A stretch of 64,000 bases of DNA from an uncultured Muribaculaceae bacterium (GTDB lineage: Bacteria; Bacteroidota; Bacteroidia; Bacteroidales; Muribaculaceae). A model generated the notes under the pieces. That model made no database searches and was not told where the DNA came from. It saw only the letters and a list, made by a program, of their open reading frames with translations. Below, one piece after another: positions 956 through 31,260 of this stretch. Position 1 is the stretch's first letter. Each line of letters starts with the position of its first letter. A program made the position numbers and the translations under genes. The stretch covers positions 154,202 to 218,201 of the forward strand of contig CANRPJ010000001.1 of the NCBI GenBank assembly GCA_947632485.1. The letters run 5' to 3'.

Positions 956-2539
956 ATGATTAAGGAATTAGAGATAAAGACAAGCCCCGAGAAGGCGTCC
1001 ACACCGGAGTTACTCCGTGGGGAGATAGCCCGTAAGCTTGGCGTCAAGATATCAGCCGTAAGCGACTGGCGCGTGGTGCGTCGTGCTATTGATGCCAGGC
1101 GTAGTCCGGTTACGGTAGTGTTGGGTGTCATTGCAGCGACAGGAAAGGATAAATGTCCTGTTGAGCACAGCGACTCTCCGGTTTATCAGAAAGTTAGCCC
1201 GGATGCGCCGCAGGTAGTGATAGTAGGTGCCGGTCCTGCGGGTCTTTTTGCGGCTCTGAGAGCTTTGGAGCTGGGAATGAAGCCAATCGTAGTAGAGCGT
1301 GGGAAAGAGGTAGACCAAAGACGTGTTGACGTGGCTGAAATATCTCGTTCAGGTGTGGTTGACCCTGATTCCAACTATTGTTTCGGAGAGGGTGGCGCCG
1401 GTGCATTCAGCGACGGCAAACTTTTCACCCGCAGCAAGAAACGTGGTAATATCCGCGAAATTCTTTCCACACTATACCACCACGGAGCCTCACGTGATAT
1501 CCTCGTTGACGCTCACCCTCATATTGGAAGCGATCGGCTTCCGCGAATCATTAAATCAATGAGGGAAACGATTCGGAAGTATGGAGGTGAAGTAAGATTC
1601 GGAGCCCGTATGGAGAATCTGCTGATTACTGATGGCAAGGTGCAAGGTATAGTTCTGGCTGACGGAACCCGTATTGAGGGGCCGGTAATACTTGCAACGG
1701 GGCATTCGGCAAGAGATGTCTATAAGATGCTCCATGCCGGAGGCGTAGGTATAGAAGCCAAAGGACTCGCGATTGGGGTGAGACTTGAACACCCACAGCA
1801 TCTGATAGATTCCCTTCAGTATCACTCTCCCAACGGCAGGGGACAATGGCTTCCGGCAGCGGAATACAGATATGTGACTCAGGTAGATGGCAGAGGTGTA
1901 TATAGCTTCTGCATGTGTCCTGGCGGAGTGGTCGTTCCCTCAGCCTCCGGACCGGAGCAAAATGCGGTAAACGGAATGTCTTCCTCGGCGCGTAACAGCT
2001 ATTGGGCTAATTCGGGCATGGTGGTAGAGGTTCACCCTGAGGATTTTCCGGAGTATTCAGATGAAGGCGAGATGTCAATGCTCGCGCTTCAGGAAAATCT
2101 TGAAAAGCGTTTTTATGAGGCAGCTGGGGCATCACAGAAAGCTCCGGCGCAGAGAATGACCGATTTCGTGGAGCGTCGTGATTCCAAGAACCTGCCGCCA
2201 TCATCTTTCGCTCCAGGTCTTATAGAAGCCCGGGTTGATAAGTTGCTACCGGCTCAGATATCTGATAGGCTTCGTGAAGGTTTTAAGGAGTTCGGACGCC
2301 GGAGCAGTGGTTTCATGACGAAAGACGCTACAGTGATCGGACTGGAAAGCCGCACCTCGAGTCCGGTAAGGATACCGAGGAAACCTGATACTCTGGAGCA
2401 TATATCTGTCGAGAACCTCTATCCTGCAGGGGAGGGAGCCGGTTATGCCGGAGGAATCGTATCGGCTGCAATCGATGGGCGACGCTGCGCAGAGGCCGTA
2501 TTTGCAAAATTTGAAAAAGAAAGTAAAAACAATGACTGA
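956..2539 (+). CDS. NAD(P)/FAD-dependent oxidoreductase
   Basis: VVIVGAGPAGLFAALRALELG dinucleotide-binding motif; C-terminal YPAGEGAGYAGGIVSAAIDG. Confidence 0.88.
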   Translation: MIKELEIKTSPEKASTPELLRGEIARKLGVKISAVSDWRVVRRAIDARRSPVTVVLGVIAATGKDKCPVEHSDSPVYQKVSPDAPQVVIVGAGPAGLFAALRALELGMKPIVVERGKEVDQRRVDVAEISRSGVVDPDSNYCFGEGGAGAFSDGKLFTRSKKRGNIREILSTLYHHGASRDILVDAHPHIGSDRLPRIIKSMRETIRKYGGEVRFGARMENLLITDGKVQGIVLADGTRIEGPVILATGHSARDVYKMLHAGGVGIEAKGLAIGVRLEHPQHLIDSLQYHSPNGRGQWLPAAEYRYVTQVDGRGVYSFCMCPGGVVVPSASGPEQNAVNGMSSSARNSYWANSGMVVEVHPEDFPEYSDEGEMSMLALQENLEKRFYEAAGASQKAPAQRMTDFVERRDSKNLPPSSFAPGLIEARVDKLLPAQISDRLREGFKEFGRRSSGFMTKDATVIGLESRTSSPVRIPRKPDTLEHISVENLYPAGEGAGYAGGIVSAAIDGRRCAEAVFAKFEKESKNND

Positions 2540-3245
2540 TACATTGATTCTAAACATAGAAACGTCAGGCGATATCTGTTCTGTAGCCTTAACCCGCAAT
2601 GGTGCTGTTGATTTCGAGCGCGAGTCGACTGAAGGAATGAAACACGCTGAGCTTCTGGCTCCTTTTGCTGATGAGGCTATGGCTGAGTTGAGACGCCGCG
2701 GCGATAAGCTAAGCGCTGTAGCGGTGAGCATCGGCCCGGGTTCCTACACAGGCTTGCGTATAGGGCTCTCGATGGGGAAAGGACTTTCTTACGGCCTCGA
2801 TGTGCCGTTGCTCGGAATTCCGACTCTTGAGGTTATGGCGGTGAAGGCTATGTTTCGTAACAGGGAATGGACTGGAGAAGAAATTCTTGTGCCCATGCTC
2901 GATGCCCGCAGAATGGAGGTCTATACTGCCGCCTACGATTTTGCCCTACATGAGCTTCTCGCTCCTCAGCCCCTGATTCTTACAGAAGACAGCTATACGG
3001 ATCTGCTCACCAGCGGACGCGAAGTGTGGTTCTTCGGCGATGGAAGCGATAAATTCAAGGAGGTTTGTAAAAATCCTTCAGCCCATTGGATAGATGGCTT
3101 GAAGCCACATGCCCGCGATATGACAGCTCTTTCGGAAAAATACCTTCGGGAAGGGCGCACTATCGACCGTGCCTATAGCGTGCCTCTTTATCTGAAAGAG
3201 TATCAGGCTACCAAGCCGATAAATACGGTAATCGGTTCTAAATAA
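2532..3245 (+). CDS. tsaB: tRNA threonylcarbamoyladenosine biosynthesis protein TsaB (C-terminal tail altered, see findings)
   Basis: ILNIETSGDICSVAL, GPGSYTGLRIGLSMGKGLSYGL. Start at 2532 overlaps the upstream gene. Confidence 0.92.
   Translation: MTDTLILNIETSGDICSVALTRNGAVDFERESTEGMKHAELLAPFADEAMAELRRRGDKLSAVAVSIGPGSYTGLRIGLSMGKGLSYGLDVPLLGIPTLEVMAVKAMFRNREWTGEEILVPMLDARRMEVYTAAYDFALHELLAPQPLILTEDSYTDLLTSGREVWFFGDGSDKFKEVCKNPSAHWIDGLKPHARDMTALSEKYLREGRTIDRAYSVPLYLKEYQATKPINTVIGSK
3203..3219 (+). repeat. 17-bp direct repeat, left copy, in the tsaB 3' end
   Basis: tcaggctaccaagccga, identical to 4869..4885. Confidence 0.9.
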
Positions 3246-3288: not shown

Positions 3289-3376
3289 AATTGTTTTGTT
3301 TTTTACGCAAAGAGCGATTTTAATTGTTTGGATTTTTACAGAATTGAAACAATAAATTGTTTGGATTTTTACAGAA
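3289..3376 (+). repeat. Phased direct-repeat array A: three 22-nt repeats, period 33 bp
   Basis: 3289 aattgttttgttttttacgcaa; 3322 aattgtttggatttttacagaa; 3355 aattgtttggatttttacagaa. The last two are identical. Confidence 0.9.
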
Positions 3377-3413
3377 CTACGCAACAACTACCTGAATTAT
3401 AAAAATATATTGC

Positions 3414-3421
3414 TACCTTTG
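3414..3421 (+). promoter_or_regulatory. Bacteroidetes-type -7 promoter box (TAnnTTTG)
   Basis: TACCTTTG 30 nt upstream of the ATPase ATG and immediately downstream of array A. Confidence 0.6.
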
Positions 3422-3450: not shown

Positions 3451-4818
3451 ATGTATTTGAAAAGACTTATAGACAGTTATCTTGATAAATGGGCTATCAG
3501 TAAAGATCATAAACCTATTTTGCTGAGGGGCGCAAGACAAGTAGGAAAATCTACTGTAGTCAGGCATCTTGGAGAAGCATTTGATAGTTTTGTTGAGATA
3601 AATTTTGAGAGGCAGCCTGAATATAAGAATGTCTTTAAGCGAGATCTGATAGTAGATCGAATAGTATCAGAACTTTCGGCAATCAGCGCTATAAAAATTG
3701 TTCCCGGGCAGACACTATTGTTTCTTGATGAAATTCAAGAATGTCAAGAAGCAATCATGTCCTTGAGATTCTTTAAGGAGGAGATGGCTGATCTTCATGT
3801 TATTGCTGCAGGGTCGCTTCTCGAATTTGCTCTTTCTGAGCTTCCAACATTTGGAGTAGGACGAATTCATAGTATGTATATGTATCCTATGACATTTGAT
3901 GAATTTCTTGATGCTAATGGTGAAACAATTTTACTCGACTATAAGAAAAACGCTTCGCCAGACCGCCCTTTACCAGAACCTCTCCATAACAAATTGATAG
4001 CCTTAATCAGATCCTATTTCCTTGTAGGAGGCATGCCTGAAGTAGTTGGCAAATGGGTAGAGACCCATGACTATCTGCAGTGTCAGGAGTTGCAAGATGA
4101 TATAGTAAGCGGATATGAAGACGATTTTCCAAAATATAAGAGAAAGATTGATTCAGCGCTTCTACGCCTTACGATGAGAAGCGCAGCCGTACAGGTTACT
4201 AAAAAATTTTCCTATTCGGAAGTCGGTGGTGGTCACAGAATAGAAGAGGTTAAAAAAGCTCTTGAAATGCTTCTGCTTGCGGGTATTTGTATCCCGGTTG
4301 TAAGAACAGATGCAAATGGCCTACCACTCGGAAGCGAATCCGATTCAAAATATCGGAAAATATTAATTCTTGATTCTGGATTGATGTTACGTCTGCTTAA
4401 TATGTCATCTATAGATATATCAAAGATTACGAGTGAAATACTCACAGAAGATCCCACCAATCTAGTTAATAAGGGGCCTTTGGCAGAAATGGTTGCAGGT
4501 CTTGAGCTACTGAGATATAAGACTCCCAACTTAAGGCACGAATTGTATTATTGGGTTAGACTTGCCAAAAACTCACAGGCAGAAATTGATTATGTAGAAG
4601 CATCTGATGGGATTCTTCCCATTGAGATAAAGGCTGGAATGAAAGGCGGTATGAAAAGTCTATGGATTTTTATGCGTGAAAAGAAACTATCTTCGGCCGT
4701 AAGGTGTTCGCTTGAGAATTTCAATCGATTTGAATACATTGATAAAGAAGCATCTGGAGAAGTGCGAAATGTAGAAATTTGTCCTCTATATGCTATTTCG
4801 AATCTTGTTAAACCATGA
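3451..4818 (+). CDS. ATP-binding protein, AAA (AAA_14) + DUF4143-type
   Basis: LLRGARQVGKSTVVRHLG Walker A; LLFLDEIQEC Walker B; C-terminal EIDYVEASDGILPIEIKAG typical of the DUF4143 tail. Confidence 0.92.
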   Translation: MYLKRLIDSYLDKWAISKDHKPILLRGARQVGKSTVVRHLGEAFDSFVEINFERQPEYKNVFKRDLIVDRIVSELSAISAIKIVPGQTLLFLDEIQECQEAIMSLRFFKEEMADLHVIAAGSLLEFALSELPTFGVGRIHSMYMYPMTFDEFLDANGETILLDYKKNASPDRPLPEPLHNKLIALIRSYFLVGGMPEVVGKWVETHDYLQCQELQDDIVSGYEDDFPKYKRKIDSALLRLTMRSAAVQVTKKFSYSEVGGGHRIEEVKKALEMLLLAGICIPVVRTDANGLPLGSESDSKYRKILILDSGLMLRLLNMSSIDISKITSEILTEDPTNLVNKGPLAEMVAGLELLRYKTPNLRHELYYWVRLAKNSQAEIDYVEASDGILPIEIKAGMKGGMKSLWIFMREKKLSSAVRCSLENFNRFEYIDKEASGEVRNVEICPLYAISNLVKP

Positions 4819-4868: not shown

Positions 4869-4885
4869 TCAGGCTACCAAGCCGA
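4869..4885 (+). repeat. 17-bp direct repeat, right copy, downstream of the inserted ATPase
   Basis: tcaggctaccaagccga; the reading through it gives ...QATKPKQKI*, parallel to ...YQATKP in TsaB. Confidence 0.9.
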
Positions 4886-4931
4886 AACAAAAAATTTGAA
4901 TTACCGAATAAATTACCTAACTTTGCAACTC

Positions 4932-5561
4932 ATGGAAGAACTCCACATGATACCATATAACACCAGTATGCCTCCGTTGGTGCTCCATGAATACGGGCGC
5001 CACATTCAGGAAATGGTGAATTACTGCGTCGGGATACCCGATCGCGAGGAGCGCACGCAATGCGCTTATGCCATAGCGGAAGTGATGGCGAATCTCTTTC
5101 CCGATCTCGTAAACGATAAGGCCGATGGCCACAAGATCTGGGATCATATCAATATTATGAGCGATTTCATGCTCGATATCGATTTTCCATGTGAGGTAAT
5201 CACCAGGGAAGAGATGATGCCCAAGCCGGAGCGGCTGCCATATCAGAAAGCTCCTATAAGGAGAAGGCTCTACGGCAGGAATATGGAGGCCGTAATCAAA
5301 TCTGTGGCTGCAATGGGAAATGGGCCTGAGAAAGACGCTCTCGTATCGAGAGTGGCCCATCACATGAAGAAGCTGATGAGTCTCCAGAACAAAGAGGGTG
5401 TGGACAACGCACTGGTTCTGCGTGATCTCTACGACTATTCAGGCGGCCTGATAGATCTTGATCCAGCCACATATCCTCTTCAGGATTTCTACGAACCGAC
5501 CCCGCAGCAACAGCAGCGACAAGGCAAGAAGAAGAAAAAGAACGGCAACAACGGCATCTGA
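4932..5561 (+). CDS. DUF4290 family protein
   Basis: MEELHMIPYNTSMPPLVLHEYGRHIQEMVNYCVGIPDREERTQCAYAI, a Bacteroidetes-conserved family located between tsaB and murA. Confidence 0.8.
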   Translation: MEELHMIPYNTSMPPLVLHEYGRHIQEMVNYCVGIPDREERTQCAYAIAEVMANLFPDLVNDKADGHKIWDHINIMSDFMLDIDFPCEVITREEMMPKPERLPYQKAPIRRRLYGRNMEAVIKSVAAMGNGPEKDALVSRVAHHMKKLMSLQNKEGVDNALVLRDLYDYSGGLIDLDPATYPLQDFYEPTPQQQQRQGKKKKKNGNNGI

Positions 5562-28089: not shown

Positions 28090-28874
28090 CCGTTGCTACC
28101 AGGCTGCAAGTCCTGATAGCTACAGTTGGCCGAAGGATTGAAAATATACCGCCACTCCCGGTTGTGCCGGGGGTGGCTTATTTGATTGGGTGGCAGAAGC
28201 CGGGAGAAGAGATCCCTGAAGAGCTGGCTAAGCGTGCCGATATCAAGGTCATGGCATCGCCAGGTATCGGATTGAGCCGCAACCGCAATTTCCTTTTTGA
28301 AAACGCTACAGCCGAACTCCTCCTGATTTCTGATGACGATTTGATCTATGAGGCAGAAGCACTCGAGGGAGTAATCCGCGCCTTCGATTCCAACCCTGAA
28401 TGCCAGCTACTTACTTTTCGTCATGCCGGAACTTCCAGGACCTATCCCGACGCTGGCTACGACTTGCTCAACCCTCCTAAAGGCACCTATACTACATCAT
28501 TTGAAATCGCGCTTCGGAGAAATTCAGAAGTCGGGAATATGCGTTTCGACGAGCGCTTCGGAATAGGTGGCACACTCTTCAGTGCCGCAGAAGACGATCT
28601 TTTCATGCTTCGTGCCCGTCAGGCCAGAATTCCTGGTCAGTATCTGCCTTTGACATTATGTACTCACCCCGGTCCTTCTACGGGTCAGCGCATACCAGAG
28701 AGGGGAGTCCTCGAAGCCTGGGGAGCATATATAGCGCTGGCGCACCCGGCTTGGCAATGGCCATTGAGGCTATACCTCAAAGCCTTACGCCTCTCTCGAT
28801 CCGGTCAAAAATCATTCTGGCCCTCCCTCCGCGGCCTCCTCTCCGGCCTCCACAAACTCCACTCCAACCCATAA
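28086..28874 (+). CDS. Glycosyltransferase family 2-like protein
   Basis: LSRNRNFLFENATAELLLISDDDLIYEAEALEGVIRAF (DDD motif), RFDERFGIGGTLFSAAEDDLFMLRARQA. Overlaps the upstream SPT gene by 4 nt. Confidence 0.75.
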   Translation: MTVATRLQVLIATVGRRIENIPPLPVVPGVAYLIGWQKPGEEIPEELAKRADIKVMASPGIGLSRNRNFLFENATAELLLISDDDLIYEAEALEGVIRAFDSNPECQLLTFRHAGTSRTYPDAGYDLLNPPKGTYTTSFEIALRRNSEVGNMRFDERFGIGGTLFSAAEDDLFMLRARQARIPGQYLPLTLCTHPGPSTGQRIPERGVLEAWGAYIALAHPAWQWPLRLYLKALRLSRSGQKSFWPSLRGLLSGLHKLHSNP

Positions 28875-28950
28875 ATCCCAATAAATCCCAATAATTCCCA
28901 ATAATTCCCGCTTAATCCCGATAAATCCTGATAAATCCTGATAAATCATG
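28871..28950 (+). repeat. 10-bp phased tandem array, left (8 units of ATAAATCCCR-like sequence)
   Basis: ataaatccca ataaatccca ataattccca ataattcccg cttaatcccg ataaatcctg ataaatcctg ataaatcatg. Confidence 0.92.
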
Positions 28951-31200: not shown

Positions 31201-31260
31201 GATAAATCCCGATAAATCAAGCTTATTCCCGATAAATCCCGTTTAATCTCGCTTAATCCC
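31201..31260 (+). repeat. 10-bp phased tandem array, right (6 units)
   Basis: gataaatccc gataaatcaa gcttattccc gataaatccc gtttaatctc gcttaatccc. Confidence 0.9.

Follow-up and report, generated by a model that had tools for sequence, protein, structure and literature searches.

A three-copy repeat array with fixed 33-bp geometry at the promoter of a PDC-S01 ATPase-nuclease gene, a probable autoregulatory operator

Genes and features of the locus

The DNA analyzed here is a stretch of 64,000 nt, referred to as the window. Near its left end, an ATPase-nuclease gene preceded by three direct repeats and a promoter box lies downstream of tsaB. The features of this locus are listed below.

2532..3245, + strand: tsaB (TsaD/TsaB family; domain match and comparison with relatives), last codons altered by the insertion
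3203..3219, + strand: left copy of a 17-bp direct repeat (TCAGGCTACCAAGCCGA) that flanks the insert, within the 3' end of tsaB
3289..3310, + strand: repeat copy 1, AATTGTTTTGTTTTTTACGCAA (sequence comparison)
3322..3343, + strand: repeat copy 2, AATTGTTTGGATTTTTACAGAA (sequence comparison and shuffles)
3355..3376, + strand: repeat copy 3, same sequence as copy 2 (sequence comparison and shuffles)
3414..3421, + strand: -7 box, TACCTTTG, 60 bp (27 + 33) 3' of where unit three begins; its 33-bp phase matches that of the orthologs
3451..4818, + strand: AAA_14 ATPase with DUF4143 (PD-(D/E)XK-like), 455 aa, PADLOC PDC-S01 (ATG at 3451; domain and profile matches)
4869..4885, + strand: right copy of the 17-bp direct repeat TCAGGCTACCAAGCCGA that flanks the insert
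4870..4899, + strand: sequence that was probably the 3' tail of tsaB originally (QATKPKQKI*), now 3' of the inserted ATPase gene
4896..5561, + strand: DUF4290 gene, true start probably near 4947

The ATPase matches the whole-protein PADLOC profile PDLC04786 over residues 1-452 (E = 1e-135). Walker A (GARQVGKS) and Walker B (FLDEIQ) motifs and the nuclease residues E346, D380, E392, and K394 were identified. Among 37 sequences, both Walker motifs, E346, E392, and K394 are invariant and D380 is nearly invariant. The window protein thus combines an AAA ATPase and a PD-(D/E)XK domain in one chain, their motifs intact, as is required of PDC-S01. PDC-S01 is described as an ATPase fused to a PD-(D/E)XK domain and a candidate single-gene defense family, which ranks fourth among defense systems by frequency across prokaryotes and whose mechanism is without validation (PMC12988326). 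The window ATPase is a putative anti-phage defense gene. In the literature searched, which was mostly open-access and partly covered, no report of a cis-element for PDC-S01 or of these repeats was found, so that their novelty is provisional.

The AlphaFold model of the ATPase has a pLDDT of 90. Its top PDB fold matches are the archaeal AAA+ proteins SSO1545/PABY2304, and DNA-bound Orc1/Cdc6 initiators, AAA+ proteins solved on origin DNA, are among the next. These matches make DNA binding by the ATPase plausible. The full-length similarities, however, are moderate or weak (TM about 0.26-0.30 for Orc/Cdc6), and a role in replication initiation is unsupported here. An iteron-like array, one option offered by the first-pass annotation, finds no footing in the replication sense, as no replication gene, plasmid context, or conserved neighbor was found and the cassette is flanked by tsaB and the DUF4290 gene on a chromosomal contig. 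The recognition substrate, another option offered there, is conceivable for the nuclease.

The repeat array in the window and in orthologs

In the window array both spacings are 33 bp. The second and third copies agree at all 22 nt, and the first matches them at 82%. The first-pass annotation had reported three repeats with exact 33-bp spacing at 3289, 3322, and 3355, a box at 3414, and an ATG at 3451, and all of these positions were recovered when the coordinates were re-derived. The box at 3414-3421 is one that we take to be a Bacteroidota-type -7 box. In shuffled windows, 0.00 matches to the 22-mer are expected with three or fewer mismatches allowed. A search of the 2.6-Mb genome for the motif returned the ATPase promoter as its sole site. 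A microsatellite or chance origin of the array is ruled out by the shuffles together with the family-wide recurrence described below. A fourth, degenerate copy covering the -33 region of the window was also considered and is unsupported (4/23 matches). At 10.5 bp per turn, 33 bp corresponds to 3.14 turns, which rotates each site by about 50 degrees relative to the one before. The earlier claim that all repeats share one DNA face therefore holds only approximately, given this rotation.

A total of 80 relatives were collected, and the 240 bp 5' of each gene were scored for three phased copies, with the 99th percentile of dinucleotide shuffles as the cut-off. Three-copy phased arrays above the cut-off precede 67 of 75 related ATPase genes, which as orthologs are non-independent samples, compared with 13 of 492 promoters that belong to other genes of these loci. 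Phased repeats are clearly enriched upstream of this family relative to both shuffles and other promoters, and there is strong support for the earlier view of a cooperative array, here tied to the ATPase family, as opposed to a chance duplication. Spacing is exactly 33/33 bp in 64 of the 67 ortholog arrays and the spacer sequences vary. These 64 loci include Aminicenantes and Acidobacteriota members with about 44% protein identity. Exactly three copies are present in 61/72 arrays. Two in-register copies are visible by eye in several of the detector failures, L090 and L142 among them.

Arrays in paralogs, subfamilies, and other phyla

The window genome encodes further DUF4143 ATPases with arrays of their own. 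L008 carries AATTTTACGGAAACACAG and L011 the palindromic TCCCTCATTGAGGGA, both at 33 bp; versions of 23 and 40 bp belong to L004 and L009. The motifs differ among these four paralogs of one genome, which answers positively the earlier question whether the repeats diversify between paralogs. Across the paralog arrays, 81 of 92 spacings are 32-34 bp and the motifs are unrelated.

Within the 'WK..GARQVGK' subfamily, arrays were detectable in 31 of 51 non-orthologous members, every spacing being 32-34 bp. The detector failed for 11/33 and 9/18 array-type subfamily members, some of them with two copies or inverted pairs. By contrast, the sister 'GPRQ' subfamily, which has equal domains, shows arrays in only 5/38 members, with mixed period. 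The array is thus largely restricted to one subfamily. Array-bearing members correspond to PADLOC models PDLC04786/88/92, and the mostly array-less GPRQ type to PDLC04790/04789. Array presence splits PDC-S01 into two classes, and the promoter signature can be used to find further members.

Arrays reached by 0/200 shuffles each were identified on named plasmids from Segatella, Criblamydia (Chlamydiota), Collinsella (Actinomycetota), Glaesserella and Vibrio (Pseudomonadota), and Agathobacter (Bacillota). An Acinetobacter plasmid array is weaker (4/200 shuffles), and two Fusobacterium records and one Bacteroides plasmid lack a convincing array. Across Bacteroidota, Aminicenantes/Acidobacteriota, Chlamydiota, Actinomycetota, Pseudomonadota, and Bacillota, the repeat sequence differs and the 32-33 bp spacing and usually three copies are kept. 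Such fixed spacing across phyla despite sequence divergence is unusual for a bacterial operator.

Several variants were observed in these comparisons. The repeat unit itself is palindromic in Vibrio L300 (TTTTATGCGCATAAAA), in the window-genome paralog L011, and in Fusobacterium L302, which suggests one dimer per 33 bp. Inverted CACATTTTT / AAAAATGTG pairs without direct arrays lie upstream of paralogs L185, L191, L192, and L196 and are perhaps a dimeric version of the array operator. DUF4143 matches are strikingly expanded in two genomes from Aminicenantes and Acidobacteriota, with 44 in G171 (L160) and 32 in G172 (L161).

Relation to the promoter and proposed operator function

In 64/67 orthologs, the units begin 26-28 bp (modulo 33) from the -7 box, so that array and promoter are locked in phase. 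The ortholog consensus is TATTTCTTTGGATTTTtTCaatTTTngnCaAAT in the upstream copies and TATTTgTTTGGATaATtTctTTTTTgTATcTTT in the last copy, where position 6, mostly C before, is mostly G and gives a -33-like TTTG. Since the last copy reads this way, the promoter itself fills the last lattice slot. Among genes with a recognizable -7 box, copies overlap the core promoter in 60/66 orthologs and 22/26 paralogs. Copies cover the -7 box itself in six paralogs (L186, L190, L201, L203, L206, and L227), the L152 array sits between the -7 box and the ATG, and the Agathobacter array extends near the start codon. At an Aminicenantes locus, copies straddle a promoter read as sigma-70-type. In the window and its nearest relatives the phase is kept, but the last good copy does not reach the -33 region and ends 17-19 bp upstream. 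Repeated sites phased to or overlapping the gene's own core promoter, as expected of an operator, are thus present.

The three-copy repeat is probably the gene's own control switch, because unrelated sequences keep equal geometry across many phyla. From these comparisons, the array is a real, family-wide cis-element and most likely an autoregulatory operator with fixed 32-33 bp geometry. We consider it reasonably probable that this operator acts on the downstream ATPase-nuclease gene, probably by repression, and is bound by an oligomer of the ATPase. No regulator gene is linked to the array. Because no neighbor gene is conserved (none in more than 3/76 loci), the ATPase is the likeliest binder; it is also the one shared factor, since motifs differ within one genome and spacing is constant across phyla. 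A spacing held at 32-33 bp while sequence diverges points to the assembly of an ordered oligomer. The ATPase may bind the array as such an oligomer through its own DNA-binding region, with one subunit or dimer per 32-33 bp. The bound protein would occlude the promoter and keep its own expression low, and repression would be lifted when the ATPase is titrated or activated during infection, giving release upon phage attack. More tentatively, and with considerable doubt, the 33-bp lattice may be an assembly platform on which the ATPase polymerizes at its own promoter in a fixed 33-bp register, kept across phyla despite free drift of the DNA sequence, silencing the gene and also storing the nuclease in an off state until infection. 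A cognate DNA element with fixed geometry offers a first handle on PDC-S01, as a defined ligand that can be used in structural work and in binding and reporter assays. As a separate observation on the gene surroundings, L133, L156, and L163 have another AAA+ ATPase gene, of the GIRR type, downstream and in opposite orientation.

The closest mechanism found is that of the small repressor RptR, whose binding sites are three direct repeats at an RM/DarTG2 defense-island promoter (PMC12255303). Both systems place three direct repeats over the core promoter of a known or candidate defense locus, and for RptR a repressor operator has been demonstrated. RptR, however, is a separate regulator with 9-bp repeats containing TAGCTA, whereas the arrays described here have a 32-33 bp period and no linked regulator gene. 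In PDC-S01 the repeat sequence changes between lineages and the spacing stays constant.

The ATPase could instead bind the array as an activator and raise its own transcription when triggered. The fixed phase between array and promoter would suit this, as would arrays ending upstream of -33 in the window clade and a few paralogs. Induction of a target promoter is on record for the mycobacterial protein IniR, which has an SSO1545-like AAA+ domain (PMC5760070). We nevertheless regard activation as unlikely, since copies on the -7 box, 3' of it, or near the start codon favor occlusion. Repression by occlusion is favored because the placement of the array over the promoter varies.

Quite unlikely, in our estimate, is that the array is mainly a sensing or gating substrate, which holds the oligomer inactive on DNA until phage-altered DNA or ATP depletion switches it on, promoter overlap being secondary. 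The protein is an AAA+ ATPase, the array co-occurs with an intact nuclease motif in the subfamily, and spacing is much better conserved than sequence, all of which would fit, but operator binding already explains the promoter overlap. An unlinked host regulator as binder is given very little weight. Such a factor is conceivable in that the ATPase as binder is an inference, but the motifs differ between paralogs of one genome, the window motif is absent from the rest of its genome, and equal spacing occurs in phyla without an obvious common regulator.

Insertion and possible mobility of the cassette

In relatives without the insert, the DUF4290 gene directly follows tsaB; in the window the ATPase cassette lies between both. 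Because no relative is close enough at the DNA level, the case for an empty site is built on gene order and on the C-terminus of TsaB. Flanking duplications of 16-240 bp were found at 9/75 loci, compared with 2/590 mismatched flank pairs and with 6/266 for the remaining genes of these loci (p = 0.001), the latter being a modest excess. In L163 the left duplication copy ends exactly at the stop codon of the upstream gene, where the array starts. The evidence for mobility is moderate, because some duplications may be local repeats. On the best reading, array, promoter, and gene travel together as one self-contained cassette, gained or lost whole. The cassette does not qualify as a transposable element: its right end has no array, the right flanks share nothing, and duplication length is not fixed. 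Insertions with long, variable target duplications are described for restriction-modification genes (PMC3031569, citing Nobusato et al., 2000). As in those cases, a nuclease-gene cassette is flanked by a target duplication of variable length, but the PDC-S01 cassette is a single gene without a methyltransferase and the duplication is seen in 9/75 loci.

That the array is a mobile-element end, on which the nuclease acts for insertion, appears highly improbable. The array does form the left edge of the inserted unit, the duplications recur, and decayed units retain the array. However, the right end has no matching array, duplication length varies widely, the excess over local control genes is modest, and the promoter phase lock would be left unexplained. 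The decayed cassettes (L044, L045, L046, and L048), in which the gene is truncated or internally deleted and array and promoter are kept, suggest rapid turnover. The same tRNA-like sequence adjoins L044 and L021.

A phage-borne decoy or phage element was rejected as a reading of the array, since a search of IMG/VR with two array patterns gave no match. One distant protein relative was found in IMG/VR, and 10 unannotated fecal 'phage' contigs match at 23-33% identity.

A repeat RNA as in type III toxin-antitoxin systems (ToxIN), suggested by short repeats of similar unit length directly 5' of an effector gene, or a chance tandem duplication is hardly credible, because the arrays precede or span the promoter and would thus be outside the gene's transcript (in the window, 5' of the -7 box), Rfam gave no convincing match, folding is unremarkable (z = -1.7), and chance duplication is excluded by the shuffles and the ortholog survey.

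Elsewhere in the window, two AT-rich 10-bp tandem arrays, ATAAATCCCG / GATAAATCCC, were found at 28871-28947 and 31201-31260, about 2.3 kb apart. A small gene block lies between them, and CCTTTGAGCTTCAGCTCAAAG is common to the sequences adjoining both; these arrays are possibly a flanking repeat pair.
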